A stretch of 64,000 nt of DNA, from positions 1 through 64,000 of the IMG/VR virus record IMGVR_UViG_3300019360_000008. One strand, 5' to 3'. This DNA is from a virus. Positions 30,898 through 59,208 of the stretch are shown one piece after another. The notes below the pieces were generated by a model. It searched no databases and was not told where the DNA came from. It worked only from the letters and a program-made list of their open reading frames with translations. Positions within the stretch are counted from its first letter, which is position 1; each line of letters starts with the position of its first letter. A program made the position numbers and the translations under genes.

Positions 30898-31584
30898 ATG
30901 CCGATAATCAAAACCGATTCGTGCTACTACGACGGTCCGTTCAAGCGGACGGTGAGGTTCGCCAAGAAGGACGGCTTCACATGTGAACTTCCGCCCGCGG
31001 CCTGGGCGGTCGTCGGTACACAGAAAGCCGTCAGTAACACGCTCGACGGCTGTCTCAGGGAGTTTGAGCGCCTGGTCAAAGCCTGGCGGTCGGCATCCTC
31101 CACAACTCGCGAGGTCCTGGTGTACCAGGTTCATCGAAAGGCCCATATCTGCGAGTCGGGTAAGAACACGGACGATGCCTTGCGCAAGTACATCTTCCGG
31201 GCGGACGACCTGGGCTTTGAAGAAGGTATGGGGCTGACCGTCTGTGCCGGGGTGTTCGTGGAAACGAAGATCCAGCTAGGCGGTGACGTGCGTTACGAGT
31301 ACAAGCTCATCAACGGTCGCCTACCTCTAAGCATTGAGCATGGGGCCGGCGGACATCACGGGCTGATCTCGGGGTGCGGGAAGTATCAGCAGGGAGCGAT
31401 GCTAACAACCCCGGAGCTGGAGGCGTTCTTCACCGGTATCGCCCTCGGGCTGGAGAAGCTGATCCTGATGTTCGACCAACTCAGGGATGAGAAGAAGCTT
31501 CTGACGTTCGCGGCCGAAGGTCTCAAACTTTTGGCGCCACCGTCAGAACCCGTTATCGAGAAAACGCTCCCGGAAGGTTCATGA
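30898..31584 (+). CDS. Uncharacterised protein convergent with terminase
   Basis: A 228-residue protein with a beta-rich first half and a helical C-terminal third. There are seven Cys residues, not in a clear metal-binding pattern. Its last 32 bases overlap the 3' end of the terminase gene on the other strand. No family is recognised. Confidence 0.55.
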   Translation: MPIIKTDSCYYDGPFKRTVRFAKKDGFTCELPPAAWAVVGTQKAVSNTLDGCLREFERLVKAWRSASSTTREVLVYQVHRKAHICESGKNTDDALRKYIFRADDLGFEEGMGLTVCAGVFVETKIQLGGDVRYEYKLINGRLPLSIEHGAGGHHGLISGCGKYQQGAMLTTPELEAFFTGIALGLEKLILMFDQLRDEKKLLTFAAEGLKLLAPPSEPVIEKTLPEGS

Positions 31585-34500
31585 TGAGATCAATCGCTGT
31601 GCCCTTGAGGGTCTGCTCAAGGCGCAGCCGAATAGAATCGTCAGCAATCAGCGGTTCACCAAGCAAGAGTCGACCCAACACGTAGGCATAATTTGCCGCC
31701 TGAATGGTGTCACTCGGCTTGGTGGCCGAGGGGAGGTAGCGCATGGTGGTAACGCCACCGGGAGATTCGCACGGAGCGCGGAACACGTTCAGGAAGTCCA
31801 ACAGGAGTGGCTGGGCCTGATCCCACTTGTAACAGCGGATACGCTTACGCTTGATGGCATTGTACAAGTCTGTGATTGACTCCGTCTTGTTGAGCTGCCA
31901 CTCGTTGATCGTGTGGGGACTGTCCGACTCGCCGAAGTACACGGCGGTCGGTCCCATGTACCGGATCATCAGGTGGCGCTCTGCGGGCAGGAGTTTGCGG
32001 ATGGCCGAGTTGTAGGCCATGCCGACACCGACGTCAGTGGCGATGGCGAACCCGCCAAGCGCCAAGTGGTTCATGCAGATGTCGGCCGAGATCGAATCAT
32101 AGTCCATACCGTCATAGCGACGCATGTGGATGATGTCAAACTCGTGTGTGCCGGCCCGAATACCCATTGCGACGTGGACCGTCGTGGAAATGCGTAACTT
32201 GTGCTCGATTGAAGGATCGGTACCGCCCCAGTCACAACCGCTGACCACATACTCATAGCCTCGGTCCCGGGCACGCTTCTGCAGCGCCTCTTGCTCGCCC
32301 AGTATACACATATCCTCCAGGTGCTTGCGCGTGATTTCTCTCGCGCCCTCATCGGTCGGAAGACCGAGCAGCTCTTGGTAGAACTTCCGGATGTTTTGCG
32401 TCGTTTTGAGCAGCCGGACGATGGATTCCCATCGAGCTTTGTTGTTCACGACGGCCGGAACGATGATCTGGGGGATGTGGAAGCCGATTTGCTTTTGCTC
32501 CAGAAGCTCGGGCTTGGCGTGGATGAACTGACCCGTGTAGACGTTGAGCAGCTTGCCGCACTTGTAGCATGACGGCCCCTGGGGCTTGATCATGTCGAGC
32601 ACGTTGTACTCCGGCAACGGGATGTTCCACGTGCCGCAGCCGCAGCGGATCGACCAGTACCCCTGACTCGATTGAGCAAACTTATTCTCCAGCGCGGTCT
32701 CAGTCGTCAGGCTGGTGCCCGAGTATATCGTGACCGGGTTCTGCGAAGCCGATTGACACTGCTGAACTTCAGTCTCCAGGTCGATGTCGAAGTCCTGAAA
32801 CTCGTCGTAGAGCAGCTCGTCGGTGGACTTGCCACGCGCCGGACCCGCCTCGGACAAGATGTGCAGGAGTTCGATCTGCGACCGGTTTGGGAATTCCTTG
32901 TACCGCAGGTTGAGGCGGAACCTGTGGTCGGGACGATACAGCGTGCAGGCCCGTTCGGTCTCGCGCAGCTTGTTAGCGTACGTGGCGAGCTGCTGTCCGC
33001 GCGGCGTAATGTAGAGACTCTTGAGCCCCGGTATGAAGTGGGCGTTAAGAACCTGCCGCACTGATATTGCGGTAGAGTTGTGGGCTACTACACCGTTCAG
33101 CACATAGTTGTGATGCTGCTCGATCTCGATGTCCCACGTATCTTCTTCCCCTAATGGCTCAATGTGTTTAATGCTGGCCCACGTGACGTCTGCGACGTTT
33201 AACCAGTGATGAAGATCGGCAACGGCTGGACAATCGGGGACATACTTCCGGCCGTGCTCCAGATACCGTTCCAGCTTTTCACGATTCGGACAATAGTTAC
33301 GTTGCAGTGTAAGTCCGTTAGGTTTGAACGCGCCCCCCTTGATCTTCTGACACGCGCTGCGCAGTTGATTTAGAACTCTAAAGATGCCGCTAGGTAGTAC
33401 ATCGTCATTATTGTTTGACGTGGTGTCGGCAATCCTAAGCGAGCCGGTTGGTTTACCGGGGATGTCGTTGAAAAGCGCGATGAACTTGCCCCATGCCGGG
33501 CGGCCTTTGATCCTTACGCGGTAGTACTTGCGGCATTTAACACGACGTCCGTCTTTCTTACGGTACCCCCCAACGCCGACCGTAATCGTGGCTTCTATGC
33601 CAAACTTCAGCAAGAGAGCGTTTATTCCATCGGCCAGTTTACGTGATGTCGTCGAGTAGGAAATATCAAAATGACCCCCATGTTGCTTTACCGTTCCGTC
33701 CGTAGCCCACAGGCGAGAAAGGAACAATCGCGCGGATTCCGCTGGAAGTTCGAAAACCCAGGAGGGAATAAACTTTTCCCAAGCACGATGCTTCCAGAGT
33801 GCATCAGCCTTTAGCCAGTTCACCATCTCGTTACGTCTACTGAAATTGACGTCTATCGCGATGCTCTTCGGACAGTCAGATAATCTAATAGGTGTAGTCT
33901 TAAGGCACTGCAGCAACCCTGCGAACTCCGCAATGGCTTGAGGATCTGCCGACGTAAAAGAGTTGTTACCTGAACAGCCGCAGCAACCGTCACCTAGCAT
34001 GTAGGCGGTAAGTATGATACGGGCCTCTTGCTCGGCTCGATCGCCAAAATTCCCGCCCCGTCGCAGCACCGCCACCCGGTCGCCTTTTTTAAGGGATTGC
34101 GCTTGCACCCAGCCGTCGAATCCCCTGAGTGGATGTTCGGAACCGAGCAAGAGACTAAGTCCTGATCGCAAGGTAATTCGATAGACCTGCTTGCGGCCCG
34201 TGCGATACTTACCTATGACTTTTGCCGAGGCAGTTCGGCACTGTTCATCCACGCACAGAACCTCTGTTCCAACTTTAATGTCTTTTGGATACAAGGGTTG
34301 ACCGTTTTTGGCGTATATCGGATTCAGATCATTTACACTTACGCATTTCGCGATCTGACGTGACCCGCGCAATACCGTGAACCCGCCGATTTGAAAGTTC
34401 AGCATCGACCACACGAACGGGTAGTCGAGGAAGCTTAACTGCTTGCCTTGTGGAAACTTGGGGAAGTAGTGACCAACCATGAAGAATAGGTTGTGACCAC

Positions 34501-34660
34501 AGTGCTTCCAAATCTCGAAAAGAAGCTGGTTGGCCTCCTCTTTGGATTTAGAGCTGGTACTCGACTTAGACTGCGCTGCTGAGAATGCATTGACAAGCGT
34601 TTCCAAGCGGGACTTGAATTCACCATCGGTGCGTGCTCTAGTGTATAGGTCGAAGTACAT
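31553..34660 (-). CDS. terL: Terminase large subunit (TerL) with intein
   Basis: The packaging motor that translocates DNA into the prohead and cuts concatemers. The 1035-residue precursor contains a 423-residue intein; spliced TerL would be 612 residues. Walker A is split by it (GSRQIAK before, STAIS after). Walker B is LLYDEFQDF (Asp619, Glu620). A Cys4 zinc-like site lies at Cys673, 675, 698 and 701. RNase H-fold nuclease aspartates are Asp810 (SGCDWGGTD) and Asp876 (IATDVGVG). The Ala in the P-loop (QIAKST, where QxGKST is usual) is odd. It is transcribed leftward, away from the small-gene cluster at 34694. Confidence 0.9.
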   Translation of the reverse strand: MYFDLYTRARTDGEFKSRLETLVNAFSAAQSKSSTSSKSKEEANQLLFEIWKHCGHNLFFMVGHYFPKFPQGKQLSFLDYPFVWSMLNFQIGGFTVLRGSRQIAKCVSVNDLNPIYAKNGQPLYPKDIKVGTEVLCVDEQCRTASAKVIGKYRTGRKQVYRITLRSGLSLLLGSEHPLRGFDGWVQAQSLKKGDRVAVLRRGGNFGDRAEQEARIILTAYMLGDGCCGCSGNNSFTSADPQAIAEFAGLLQCLKTTPIRLSDCPKSIAIDVNFSRRNEMVNWLKADALWKHRAWEKFIPSWVFELPAESARLFLSRLWATDGTVKQHGGHFDISYSTTSRKLADGINALLLKFGIEATITVGVGGYRKKDGRRVKCRKYYRVRIKGRPAWGKFIALFNDIPGKPTGSLRIADTTSNNNDDVLPSGIFRVLNQLRSACQKIKGGAFKPNGLTLQRNYCPNREKLERYLEHGRKYVPDCPAVADLHHWLNVADVTWASIKHIEPLGEEDTWDIEIEQHHNYVLNGVVAHNSTAISVRQVLNAHFIPGLKSLYITPRGQQLATYANKLRETERACTLYRPDHRFRLNLRYKEFPNRSQIELLHILSEAGPARGKSTDELLYDEFQDFDIDLETEVQQCQSASQNPVTIYSGTSLTTETALENKFAQSSQGYWSIRCGCGTWNIPLPEYNVLDMIKPQGPSCYKCGKLLNVYTGQFIHAKPELLEQKQIGFHIPQIIVPAVVNNKARWESIVRLLKTTQNIRKFYQELLGLPTDEGAREITRKHLEDMCILGEQEALQKRARDRGYEYVVSGCDWGGTDPSIEHKLRISTTVHVAMGIRAGTHEFDIIHMRRYDGMDYDSISADICMNHLALGGFAIATDVGVGMAYNSAIRKLLPAERHLMIRYMGPTAVYFGESDSPHTINEWQLNKTESITDLYNAIKRKRIRCYKWDQAQPLLLDFLNVFRAPCESPGGVTTMRYLPSATKPSDTIQAANYAYVLGRLLLGEPLIADDSIRLRLEQTLKGTAIDLIMNLPGAFSR
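33077..34345 (-). mobile_element. Intein with LAGLIDADG endonuclease in TerL
   Basis: Precursor residues 106-528. The first residue is Cys106 (CVSVNDLNPI), the last are His-Asn (VVAHN) and the +1 extein residue is Ser529, the standard splice-junction set. LAGLIDADG-type motifs are LTAYMLGDGC (residues 217-226) and FLSRLWATDGTV (about 313-324), so the homing endonuclease looks complete. It interrupts the ATP-binding loop exactly between Lys and Ser. Confidence 0.9.
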
Positions 34661-38435: not shown

Positions 38436-38773
38436 TGGATGCTAGAAAGAAAGCCATCCTGGCGGAAAAGTTCATTGCGTACGCACCTGTGTGCCCTGTG
38501 GTATGTGGGTACGTACAATTCTCCAAACTGCGGAAGGGATTTGCTCCGGGCACCCTGAAGGAGATCTTCAGATGTGCCCAGTCGGCATCGTATCTATCCA
38601 CCATCACGGAAGCCTACTGCACACTTGAGGACTTCATTGAGGAGGTCGCCAGGTGGAAGGATGTTACGATGTTCGGTGAGACCGCAACGGTCTTGGTGGA
38701 AACCCTGATCGAACTGCTCAAGAAATGTAAATATGAGGTCATCATCTTCGACGACTCAACGAAAACCTCGTAA
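38435..38773 (+). CDS. Uncharacterised small protein
   Basis: A 112-residue, mainly helical protein whose start overlaps the ligase stop by one base. It contains five Cys, four of them in the first 60 residues (PVCPVVCGY among them), without a standard zinc pattern. It belongs to the ligase operon; no family is recognised. Confidence 0.55.
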
Positions 38774-39179
38774 TCGAAGGGCGCTTAAACACGTAGTGCT
38801 GTCGGGCGAATGCGTTATCACCCAAAGCTCTAATGACGTTGTCTGTATTAGGCTTCGCGACAACAGATCTCGCTGCCAGGCCGTGGAGGTACGCTTATCG
38901 TATTCTAACTTTGCCAGTGCGCTTATGCGCATACCGGCACCGTGTAGGTTTGAGTGGCACCCCGAGAACATAGGCAAGAAGCGTGAAATCAAAACCGAAA
39001 TTGTCCCGTTCACCCTAACTTACGATTCGGAAAATCAAAACCGAGAGAGGGCCAAGGCCGCCCTAAAACCTTTCGAGAAGGACTGGTGGGTGGGACACCC
39101 TGAAGATCTCTTAAGTCATCGCAATCGCGTAAAGGGTGAAGTGGAAGCCTATCAGGTCAGCTTCATCCGCTACGTTTAA
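38733..39179 (+). CDS. Uncharacterised protein
   Basis: A 148-residue protein overlapping the previous gene by 41 bases from ATG 38733. The first 20 residues are Ser/Arg-rich and may belong to the overlap only; a GTG start near 38796 would avoid the overlap. The remainder is beta-rich with a conserved-looking FEWHPENIGKKREIK segment. No family recognised. Confidence 0.5.
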   Translation: MRSSSSTTQRKPRNRRALKHVVLSGECVITQSSNDVVCIRLRDNRSRCQAVEVRLSYSNFASALMRIPAPCRFEWHPENIGKKREIKTEIVPFTLTYDSENQNRERAKAALKPFEKDWWVGHPEDLLSHRNRVKGEVEAYQVSFIRYV

Positions 39180-39193
39180 CACTCAGTACCAAA

Positions 39194-39865
39194 ATGAAAC
39201 AGTATATCAAACTGTTGGGAGATGTCATGACCAAGGGTTATGACGATGTTCTCACCAATCCACTCATCGGAGAAGTTCGCCAGGTTATTGCGCCGCAGCT
39301 AAGGTTTGATCTGGCCAAAGGCTTCCCGCTGCTAACCACGCGCCCCCAGGACTTTGAGAAGCTCCGGGACGAGGCGCTCAACATTATGCATGCGTCAAAT
39401 GCCCAGGACGTCGTCCGCGGCATTACGACAACCCAGGAAGACCGGACGTTCAACGTGCCGGTCACGGACGGAATGCCCGTCCGATGCGAAATCATCAACG
39501 AGGGACACGAAATACACTGCATCTTGTCTTTAGACTCTGTCGATGTTGTGTCCGGATTGCCTCGCGTCATCGCCCTTTATGCCATCGTGGTTCGTCTGCT
39601 CAGTCGCGAATCTGTGGGACGCTATGACGGCACATTGGTACTGAATATCGGCCGCGCGTTCGTGCGCCACAAGGACTTCAAGCTGGTAAACACGCAGATA
39701 AACCGCAAGCCCCTGAAAATGTGCAAGCTGCAGTTCAATCCGGAGCGCTCTAGCTACAAGGACTCAGTGCCGGACGACCTTACGATTGTCGATTACATCT
39801 ATCACGACGAAATCGATGAATTGACGGGTCTAGCGCTAAACAAAACAGATGGAGTTAAATCCTGA
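39194..39865 (+). CDS. Thymidylate-synthase-fold protein without catalytic cysteine
   Basis: A 223-residue protein with the thymidylate synthase fold. It keeps MKQYIKLLGDVM, LRFDLAKGFPLLTTR, the strand-helix SVDVVSGLP...IALYAIVVRLL, NTQINRKP and the C-terminal DDLTIVDYIYHD. Aligned without gaps to E. coli ThyA from the conserved SxDVxxGLP stretch, the catalytic Cys146 falls on Met94, Arg166 on Asp114 and Asn177 on Val125; Asp169 is kept as Asp117. The RTGTGT phosphate loop is also missing. It is shorter than true ThyA (about 264). Methyl transfer is therefore unlikely; a binding or regulatory role is inferred. Confidence 0.75.
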   Translation: MKQYIKLLGDVMTKGYDDVLTNPLIGEVRQVIAPQLRFDLAKGFPLLTTRPQDFEKLRDEALNIMHASNAQDVVRGITTTQEDRTFNVPVTDGMPVRCEIINEGHEIHCILSLDSVDVVSGLPRVIALYAIVVRLLSRESVGRYDGTLVLNIGRAFVRHKDFKLVNTQINRKPLKMCKLQFNPERSSYKDSVPDDLTIVDYIYHDEIDELTGLALNKTDGVKS

Positions 39866-40193
39866 CGTGGTGCCCGCAACGGTAGAGGAGGCGATCACTA
39901 TGCTGACCGCCGCCTTATCGCCCGAGGAGTGGGCTACATTGCGACAATCATCACCCGCTGAGTTCCACTTCTCCGCTGGAACACAACTGCGCGACTTCTG
40001 GAGTTTCTGGGAGGAAATGACTCCACTCAGAAACTCCTTCAGGAAGCTGGGACTGTCCCATCCGGACGATCTTAGCGGCTACCTGTTGGAGTACCTTTGC
40101 AAAACTGCAAGGGATGAACCGTTCGATTCGGATGCCTACATCAAGAAGGTACAAAATCACTGGATCAACACGATCGGAAGAGCAATACCATGA
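39849..40193 (+). CDS. DUF6794-like protein
   Basis: A 114-residue helical protein with the layout of the DUF6794 family: P-x-TVEEAITML near the start, a 'FHFSAGTQLRDFW' segment, then LGLSHPDDLSGYLLEYL. Function of the family is unknown. It overlaps the thymidylate-synthase-like gene by 17 bases and the SbcD gene by ATGA, so it sits in a repair/nucleotide operon. Confidence 0.6.
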   Translation: MELNPDVVPATVEEAITMLTAALSPEEWATLRQSSPAEFHFSAGTQLRDFWSFWEEMTPLRNSFRKLGLSHPDDLSGYLLEYLCKTARDEPFDSDAYIKKVQNHWINTIGRAIP

Positions 40194-55752: not shown

Positions 55753-58700
55753 ATGGCGAGTACCTTCAACTTCCAGAGCAACTCCACGGCGTCCACTATG
55801 GCGCCAGAAGAGCAGGCTCGTTTTGATGCTGAACAAGCAAAGCTGAGTATCGGTCAGGAGATCGAATTTCTCAGCCGTCACGGTGAGCCTCTCAAGGAAG
55901 AGGACTACTGGTCTCAGTTCCCCGAACACCTTCGCGGCATTGCGCCGCCCACGTCGCTGGAGTTTGCTCACACCGGCATTGGCAGCTTGGACTGGGGAGA
56001 TCGCTTCGGGAACAAGTTCCACGGACTCACGCTGCTGCCCACCTATCGGTTCAAGTCCGGCACTCCACATCGTCGCGTCGACATTCTGTTCGTGATGCCG
56101 TGCGTGCTCGATGCAGACATCGACAGCCGCTACAGCCCCGCGGCGATGTTGAAAGGTAAGGCGGCCAACCTGTTTGCCCGGAACCTCGGACGAGCCGGGC
56201 TGGCTGACTGCTGCTGGGACTTCACCACTCTGGTACGCTACCCGACCAAATCCAACCGTCCCAAGTCTCACGACATCAATTGGGCCAGGCCGCTGTTCTA
56301 CGCGGAGATCAACCGGCTACGCCCCCGCATCATTGTGGCGATGGGCAAGGCCGTGTTTGAGAATCTGTACACAGCGTTCAAGATCAACCTACAGGACTTC
56401 CAGGGCGGCGTCTTCGACGTCGACGTCCCAGAGGTTTTACAGGACGACGAATGGCGCCCTAAGCTGATGATCATGGATCAGATCTCCCTCACGTTCAGTC
56501 GGCCCGAGCTGATCGAACGCTGTCTGGTGGATCTAGACAACATCCGATACGAGCTGACCAAGCTAAAGGAACCGGATGCGACGCGCGTCACGGACGTTAG
56601 GACCAACTACCAGGTCATCGAGACGGCTGAGTACCTGGGCAACTGGATCGAGGACATGCGGCAGAAGCAGGTGCTCAAGATGGCCGTTGACGCTGAGTGG
56701 GCCGGCAAACATTTCGTCGACGGTAAACTGCGCTCCTTCCAAAGCTGCTGGGAACCCGGCCAGGTCACGTACCTGAAGTTCATGGATGACCAGGGCCGAC
56801 GGGTCCTTCCTCTGCACCCAAAGCAGATCGGGGACATCATGCGCCCGGTGTTCGAGGCTCCTGGCTTCCAGTACATCGGTCACAACTTCCCCGCTGACGC
56901 AGTCTGGATCGAGACCCACCTGGGCCTCAGTACTTACAGGCGGCTGTTCATGGACACGATGTTCGTGCAACAGTTGATCAACGAATATGCCGATCTCAAG
57001 CTTGAACGTCTCGCCGTGCGCTATACGCGACTCGGTCGATACGATGTTGCTCTGCAGCTGTGGAAGAAAGAAAACGCCGACCTGTTCAAAGAGAGCGACG
57101 GTTACGGCGCGATCCCTGATAGACTACTGGTACCGTATGCCTGCAAGGACGTCGACGTCACGTTCCGGGTCCACCCGATTCTGCTCACTCAGCTGATCGC
57201 TCAGGGACCAAGGCTGCTACAGTACTGGCTCCAAATCAACCGTGGGTTCACGAGCGACTGCTACACCAGCAAGATGCTCACCGGGCTGCCGATCGACCAG
57301 GCGTACGCCGACAAGCTGCGCGAGGTCTATCACAGCAACCTGGCCTTCCTGCAGGACGACTTCAAGCGCCAGGTTGTTGCCGAGGCGGACGAAATGCTTC
57401 TCAAGTCACTCACACGCCACATACCCGGTGCCGCAGTAACCGTGCTGCAGATCCTCAACGTTCAACGCAAGTCCGGCATGCCTGCCCCTGACATGATCCG
57501 CTTTGCTCAGATGAGCGTCGGGTCCGGATGGTCGCAGGACGCCCAGCTACATGCCTGCTTGGAGCATTGGCTGGACATCGATAACTTCAACTACAGCAGC
57601 CCCGACTATCTGCGACGATGGATGTTCCAGGTCAAGGGCCTCATGCCACTCAAAACCACCAAGAAGGACGGGGTCACGATGTCGTGGGAGAAGGTGCTGA
57701 AGCTCGATTCCGACAAGCAGAAGGACTATACGCCAGCGGCGGACAAGCAGACCATCAAGATCTATGAGAACCAGGACCCAATGATCGCTTACGTGGGGCA
57801 GCTCAAGTCTGTCGCCACAATGTGCAAAACATTCTTGAGGGACAAGGACGAGGACGGCGAGGAGCGGGGCATACACAGCTGGATCTGCTCCGACGGGGCG
57901 ATTCATGCCAACTTTGCCTCAACCGAAACCGGCCGCCCCCGCACATGGAATCCCAACATCCTGAATTGGCCAAAGTCGGTGTCAAAGCCGATCGAACTGG
58001 CCTTCAAACGCGTGAATGCGGAACGGGCTAAAGCTACCCGCCAGCGTATGATCGACGACGCCGCCATGAACGGGCAGGAGCCCAACATGGCTGTGATCGA
58101 AGAGAAGGTCAAGGAGATACAATTCGCTCCGGTGTCACTCCGGTCGATGGTTAAAGCGCCTCCCGGCGAATGCTTCGTGGACGCTGACTTGGTGACGGCA
58201 GAAGTGGTGGGCCTTGGCTACCTGGCTGGGGACAGGAACCTGATCGACGCTTGTGAAGCGCCTGACCAGCAGTTTGCCATCATGCGCAAGACGGACGAGT
58301 CGGGCAACGTTAAGGAGAAGCCTGTTCGGATCTGCTACATCGAAGACATCTCACGTGTACCCAAGGACATGCAGGACGCGTCTCTCCTGGTACCAGAAGA
58401 CCATCCGGATCTTGTACGCGAGAACAACAAGATCGTGCATCCCAAGCGGGACGTTCACTGGCAAATGGCCGAGTCATTCACAAAGACTCCGCGCGAAAAG
58501 CTCAACAAGGACACGCATCGTGGTGGCGGTAAGGTAGGAATGTTCTCTATTCCGTATGGCGCCAAGGCTCCTCTGATCGAACGTAACATCGAGGTATTGA
58601 CTGGTGTCAAGCCGGCAGAAGGAACCGGCGCCGCGATCATCACGGCCTATGAGACTAACTTCCCCGTCGCCACGCAGTTCCTTAACGAAATGGCCATGCT

Positions 58701-59208
58701 GCCGTCGGGCGACAGGCCAGAACTCATTGACCCGGGAACACCGCTTGGGTGTTACGACTCAGTATCAGGTCGCCGACGGCATTTCAAGTACACTGAGATC
58801 AAGGACCTAGAAGGTCTTACCGAATGGGCCAAGAAGTCTATCTTGGATCCTATGACTCGCGAAGCCCGCAACTATCCTCTGCAGGAGATCGTTGCGGCCA
58901 CAATGGCTCGCGCCCACATCTGGCTGCTGGACTATTACATCCAGCGTGGGATGAAAGCACGGCCGATGCTGTTGTTGTACGACGCTTTGACGGTGCGCTG
59001 CCCCTTGGAGGAGCGGTTCATCGTCAGGGACTCATTGCAGCGATACATGTCGGACGAGAACGTCTGGCATGTGGCGCGATCGAACATGAGCTTGCAGTTT
59101 GATATAGAAGTCGACTTCACCATCAGGTGGGCGCTAGACCCAACTCCGGATCTGCGCAAGCTTCTGTACGACGAACAGCTGCTCAAGTTCGAATGTCCTC
59201 CCGTATGA
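55753..59208 (+). CDS. polA: Family A DNA polymerase with N-terminal UDG-like domain
   Basis: A 1151-residue replicative polymerase. Residues about 115-215 resemble a uracil-DNA-glycosylase fold (VDILFVMPC..., FARNLGRAGL, FTTLVRYPTKSNRP, LRPRIIVAMGKAVFENL), but the GExPG and HPS catalytic motifs are not conserved. The 3'-5' exonuclease has Asp313/Glu315 (AVDAEW), IGHNFPAD and YACKDVD. Polymerase motif A is Asp812/Glu817 (DLVTAE), the O-helix is RGGGKVGMFSIPYG, and motif C is LLYDAL with Asp1077, where HDE is usual. Two inserts of about 150 residues separate exo and pol. Confidence 0.85.
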   Translation: MASTFNFQSNSTASTMAPEEQARFDAEQAKLSIGQEIEFLSRHGEPLKEEDYWSQFPEHLRGIAPPTSLEFAHTGIGSLDWGDRFGNKFHGLTLLPTYRFKSGTPHRRVDILFVMPCVLDADIDSRYSPAAMLKGKAANLFARNLGRAGLADCCWDFTTLVRYPTKSNRPKSHDINWARPLFYAEINRLRPRIIVAMGKAVFENLYTAFKINLQDFQGGVFDVDVPEVLQDDEWRPKLMIMDQISLTFSRPELIERCLVDLDNIRYELTKLKEPDATRVTDVRTNYQVIETAEYLGNWIEDMRQKQVLKMAVDAEWAGKHFVDGKLRSFQSCWEPGQVTYLKFMDDQGRRVLPLHPKQIGDIMRPVFEAPGFQYIGHNFPADAVWIETHLGLSTYRRLFMDTMFVQQLINEYADLKLERLAVRYTRLGRYDVALQLWKKENADLFKESDGYGAIPDRLLVPYACKDVDVTFRVHPILLTQLIAQGPRLLQYWLQINRGFTSDCYTSKMLTGLPIDQAYADKLREVYHSNLAFLQDDFKRQVVAEADEMLLKSLTRHIPGAAVTVLQILNVQRKSGMPAPDMIRFAQMSVGSGWSQDAQLHACLEHWLDIDNFNYSSPDYLRRWMFQVKGLMPLKTTKKDGVTMSWEKVLKLDSDKQKDYTPAADKQTIKIYENQDPMIAYVGQLKSVATMCKTFLRDKDEDGEERGIHSWICSDGAIHANFASTETGRPRTWNPNILNWPKSVSKPIELAFKRVNAERAKATRQRMIDDAAMNGQEPNMAVIEEKVKEIQFAPVSLRSMVKAPPGECFVDADLVTAEVVGLGYLAGDRNLIDACEAPDQQFAIMRKTDESGNVKEKPVRICYIEDISRVPKDMQDASLLVPEDHPDLVRENNKIVHPKRDVHWQMAESFTKTPREKLNKDTHRGGGKVGMFSIPYGAKAPLIERNIEVLTGVKPAEGTGAAIITAYETNFPVATQFLNEMAMLPSGDRPELIDPGTPLGCYDSVSGRRRHFKYTEIKDLEGLTEWAKKSILDPMTREARNYPLQEIVAATMARAHIWLLDYYIQRGMKARPMLLLYDALTVRCPLEERFIVRDSLQRYMSDENVWHVARSNMSLQFDIEVDFTIRWALDPTPDLRKLLYDEQLLKFECPPV

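Follow-up and report, generated by a model that had tools for sequence, protein, structure and literature searches.

A phage protein with the thymidylate synthase fold that is probably maintained as a pseudoenzyme

Fold and residue losses of a phage thymidylate synthase homologue

Thymidylate synthase (TS), which produces the T of DNA, is among the most conserved enzymes, and phages usually carry it for DNA precursors; what, then, does a phage gain from a TS-like gene in which most of the substrate site has gone? The question is raised by an open reading frame (ORF) of 223 amino acids, here called pseudo-TS, that is located at 39194..39865 (+ strand) of a 64,000-nt window within an 82,882-base IMG/VR virus record (an uncultured phage contig). 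The ORF matched Pfam PF00303 (Thymidylat_synt, E 2.9e-20), PHROG 160 (TS, 1.3e-22), and a PDB TS sequence (2.7e-15). An AlphaFold2 (AF2) model was obtained with a pLDDT of 85.6 and a pTM of 0.83 from a 32-sequence alignment of mostly canonical TS, which is a caveat on the fold call, and Foldseek returned TS as the best PDB matches of this model (E 1.2e-14, query-normalised TM 0.80). The TS fold that had been claimed from the sequence alone was thus borne out by family matches and predicted structure; homology is far above chance, and the assignment to this fold is not in doubt.

The protein aligned to TS as two blocks, residues 1–67 and 104–208, and the small domain between them was mostly gone. 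The N-terminal block (aa 1–67, 39194..39394, +) kept the first helix, the interface strand (Q35 and R37, corresponding to E. coli Q33 and R35), and Glu60 (E. coli E58). The small-domain remnant (aa 66–93, 39389..39472, +) contained no equivalent of E. coli W80, Y94, or the R126/R127 loop; in the AF2 model, one helix (68–79) and a short strand (84–87) replace TS residues 70–140.

The roles of the catalytic residues of TS are well established. Compared with E. coli ThyA, pseudo-TS had no equivalent of residues 20–21, most of the small domain, and the 126–127 loop, with the deletion of R21, W80, Y94, R126', and R127'. Nine further residues (C146, R166, N177, H207, Y209, K48, H51, Q165, and D205) were replaced, and E58, D169, G204, and R222, as well as Q33 and R35, were kept. 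The codon at 39533..39535 (+) encodes Asp114 in place of the phosphate-binding Arg166 in an ungapped alignment, and that at 39566..39568 (+) encodes Val125 in place of the uracil-recognising Asn177 in the alignment to TS. His207 was replaced by Phe156 (Ile in the orthologue described below) and Tyr209 by Arg158 (Met in the orthologue). Of the four-arginine phosphate site (R21, R166, R126', and R127'), only the second position was still present, as Asp114. The APVAI-type C-terminal end of TS was also absent, and the sequence contained neither the catalytic Cys nor the phosphate arginines that TS and pyrimidine hydroxymethylases require. These results confirm three losses proposed in the sequence-only reading (Arg166 to Asp, Asn177 to Val, and the missing phosphate loop of Arg21), all identical in the orthologue, and extend its list by Trp80, Tyr94, Arg126', Arg127', His207, Tyr209, Lys48, and His51.

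An orthologue with 61% protein identity and the same catalytic losses was identified in a second phage (L001:8001-8714). L001 is an independent contig, and the terminases of the two phages share 89% identity over most of the protein. The losses are therefore neither a sequencing error nor an accident of a single phage. No further orthologues were found by viral scans with the protein, the alignment, two degenerate motifs, and LigA, or by two genome scans. Eight candidates (L012, L013, and L101–L106) were false positives. Among apparent short phage TS, phrog_5682 (209 positions) covered the C-terminal two-thirds of a full-length Bacillus phage TS and represents another architecture, and the enzymes of SBSphiJ4, Goe8, Zuri, and OLIVR1 were all full-length with normal catalytic motifs. 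The best single match, a gut-phage TS, was canonical too. Phylogenetic analysis placed the pseudo-TS pair on a very long branch.

Residue at the nucleophile position

The sequence-only reading had placed Met at the position of the catalytic Cys146, and this assignment depends on the alignment. MAFFT and hhalign alignments placed Cys98 (codon 39485..39487, +; conserved in both orthologues) in the Cys146 column, which required a 4-residue gap; a second MAFFT alignment (A5) placed Val96 there. As a control for the register, a canonical phage TS (L052, E. coli numbering) was modelled with AF2 in the same way. Its model contained a hairpin (strands 147–155 and 158–169), a helix (173–191), a strand (195–209), and a second helix (210–221), and the corresponding elements in pseudo-TS were 97–103 and 106–117, 121–139, 147–158, and 159–170. 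The offset between the two proteins, as taken from secondary-structure boundaries rather than from superposed coordinates, was 52 across the hairpin and the following helix, and 51 past a one-residue insertion. An offset of 52 equates Cys146 with Met94 (codon 39473..39475, +; also Met in L001) and Cys98 with E. coli Phe150, which lies within the strand. The input alignment did not impose this register, because A5 had Val96 in that column. The models therefore favour Met94, rather than Cys98, as the occupant of the Cys146 position. The Pro-Cys-His motif of TS was absent around Cys98. Realignment, which the sequence-only reading had named as the route by which its claim could fall, did not rescue a catalytic Cys with its partners: Cys98 is alignable with the 4-residue gap, but the arginine partners were absent in every alignment.

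Selection and genomic context

Between the two orthologues, pN was 0.25 and pS was 0.75 (saturated), giving a pN/pS of 0.33 that is close to the 0.29 of the nearby LigA gene. A pN of 0.25 against saturated synonymous sites shows that the pseudo-TS gene is maintained by purifying selection, in agreement with the earlier proposal that the protein has been kept in frame despite its losses. The distribution of constraint along the protein was compared with that in 638 TS pairs of similar overall identity, which share sequences and are not independent. The active-site hairpin (146–172) showed an identity of 0.48 in the pseudo-TS pair vs. 0.78 ± 0.07 (minimum 0.56) in TS pairs, whereas segment 210–258 showed an identity of 0.78, equal to the TS-pair maximum, vs. 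0.48 ± 0.07. In real TS, the hairpin is the most conserved and segment 210–258 the least conserved of the segments; in the pseudo-TS pair this order is reversed, with no aligned TS-core segment less conserved than the hairpin. Residues 68–93, a linker at the former place of the small domain, were freer than the hairpin (23% identity). The N-terminal block retained 71–77% identity, and aa 159–207, the counterpart of segment 210–258 (39668..39814, +; 78% identity), formed the most conserved segment, which is a candidate binding surface. Constraint has moved away from the active site. With one orthologue pair this is a single observation, strong although short of a formal test, and it suggests that the N- and C-terminal parts are now under more selection than the active site. 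Eight polar pocket or hairpin positions (E60, D114, D117, R124, R154, C98, H108, and C109) were identical in both orthologues.

The gene order LigA, ORF112, pseudo-TS, DUF6794, and SbcD is common to the window and L001. In the window, ORF112 and pseudo-TS are separated by a 148-aa ORF without a family match (38733–39179, +), which is absent from this position in L001. The DUF6794 gene (39849..40193, +; Pfam 5.4e-14) starts 17 bp before the end of pseudo-TS in both phages, and this overlap suggests translational coupling of the two genes. Downstream of SbcD are genes for SbcC, helicases, DnaB, a primase, and a fusion of uracil-DNA-glycosylase (UDG)-like, exonuclease, and PolA domains. Searches of the 82.9-kb record, which may be incomplete, revealed no second TS, hydroxymethylase, ThyX, or dUTPase; a base-modification pathway is therefore unsupported, and the search for an active partner elsewhere in the phage returned no other TS. 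DUF6794 also occurs in giant Caulobacter and Brevundimonas phages, with no recognisable TS beside it, and its distribution is a weak hint at a possible alphaproteobacterial host.

Several other features of the record were observed. The DNA polymerase (55753–59208, +) carries a 3'-5' exonuclease and an N-terminal UDG-like domain (Pfam 2.5e-4, under the curated cut-off), a combination with polymerase that is known from phage PaBG (PMC7412058). The UDG-like domain reads VMPCV where the GExPG motif is expected, and may be inactive as well. The gene for the terminase large subunit (TerL; 31553–34660, -) contains an intein of ~420 aa with splicing and LAGLIDADG endonuclease domains directly after GSRQIAK, which is likely the ATP-binding loop of TerL. 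The intein is absent from the TerL of L001 and was therefore gained or lost since the two phages split. Within positions 1–30000 of the window, long ORFs were tested over the first 23 kb, and the majority had no PHROG match, indicating that databases contain very little from this phage lineage.

Possible functions and comparison with known systems

A maintained, non-catalytic TS-fold protein is a well-supported reading of these sequences, given the two orthologues, the purifying selection, and the arginine partners that no alignment rescued. We consider it somewhat probable that pseudo-TS is a pseudoenzyme that works by protein contacts, most likely as a subunit of a phage complex drawn from its own gene cluster. 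In such a scenario, a TS-fold protein from which the small domain has gone, along with the phosphate site for dUMP, the residue for base recognition, and the nucleophile, would have been retained for another job. It would act through its N-terminal helix and strand and its C-terminal surfaces, without catalysis, most likely as a small subunit, structural or regulatory, of a complex from the LigA, ORF112, pseudo-TS, DUF6794, SbcD, and SbcC cluster. The DUF6794 protein, whose gene overlaps that of pseudo-TS, would be the first candidate partner; gene overlap alone is no proof of a complex between the two. Of the roles proposed in the sequence-only reading, the binding of another protein or enzyme is the best remaining option, suggested by where constraint now falls. 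Nucleotide binding is argued against by the loss of every one of the four phosphate arginines and of the Asn that recognises the base, together with the poor conservation of the pocket hairpin.

The polar residues that are identical in both orthologues make a new ligand or activity in the pocket possible. An enzymatic activity of a remodelled pocket through E60, D114, D117, R124, and R154 would draw on five such residues, three of which (D114, R124, and R154) differ from the TS residue. However, much of the pocket is carried by the hairpin, the aligned TS-core segment with the lowest conservation, and the small domain, which closes the pocket in TS, is gone; this explanation is doubtful.

Dominant-negative poisoning of the host enzyme was also considered, in which the pseudo-subunit pairs with host ThyA, the partner site is dead without the R126/R127 loop, and host dTMP synthesis is lowered. 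Such an action would represent a new phage control of nucleotide supply, a gene-encoded dTMP switch. The strand of TS with F149, Q151, and Y153 faces the partner subunit. In pseudo-TS, the equivalents of these residues are Arg, Glu/Gln, and Ile/Val, respectively, and the dimer face is altered at the hairpin as well as at E. coli F30 (the human Phe59 hot spot), which is invariant in 26 phage TS and is Ile here. Loss of Phe59 weakens the human TS dimer over 1000-fold (PMC6523895). On the other hand, the interface residues Q33 and R35 (human Q62 and R64) were kept, and the R126'/R127' pair, which is missing here, comes from the partner subunit in TS and is essential, as human TS R175C and R175A are inactive (PMC6479699). 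A lytic phage with T-containing DNA would gain little from lowered dTMP, and no replacement-base pathway was found in the record. Taken together, poisoning of ThyA is unlikely.

A nucleic-acid- or mRNA-binding regulator derived from the RNA binding of TS is distinctly unlikely. Cellular TS binds its own mRNA (PMC6479699), and the gene sits amid replication and recombination genes; however, the earlier proposal of RNA binding, and equally one of DNA binding, is unsupported by charge, as the protein is acidic (pI 6.0, and 5.1 in L001) and its most conserved segment has an Asp/Glu-rich end. A divergent but active TS or hydroxymethylase with Cys98 as the nucleophile is very improbable, since the hhalign and MAFFT placement of Cys98 and the retention of E58 and D169 are set against the AF2 register at Met94 and the absence or replacement of R21, R126', R127', R166, N177, H207, Y209, W80, and Y94 in both orthologues. 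Decay as a functionless pseudogene, for which the lost catalytic residues could speak, is equally improbable and is contradicted by the pN/pS and by a frame that is open in two phages at 61% protein identity with saturated synonymous sites.

No phage pseudo-TS was found described in the open-access papers that were searched. A phage lineage that keeps the TS fold with nearly the whole substrate site erased would be a clean natural case of a repurposed enzyme, and it warns that a strong match to the TS family does not equal TS activity in annotation. Pseudo-TS resembles cellular and phage ThyA (PF00303) in its fold, first helix, interface strand, hairpin, long helix, and C-terminal strands, but differs in having no nucleophile, phosphate arginines, N177, H207, Y209, or most of the small domain, and in its inverted pattern of constraint. 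With the T4 gp42-type dCMP/dUMP hydroxymethylases, which need a catalytic Cys and phosphate arginines, it shares the fold superfamily and a similar short length; a gp42 homologue of 234 aa matched pseudo-TS in Foldseek at a TMq of 0.60, weaker than ThyA. The trypanosomatid deoxyhypusine synthase prozyme (PMC3663545), an example of a catalytically dead paralogue acting as a partner, differs in that its active partner is known from the same genome, whereas none was found for pseudo-TS in the record; like that prozyme, pseudo-TS appears to be a dead enzyme fold that has been kept as a gene.
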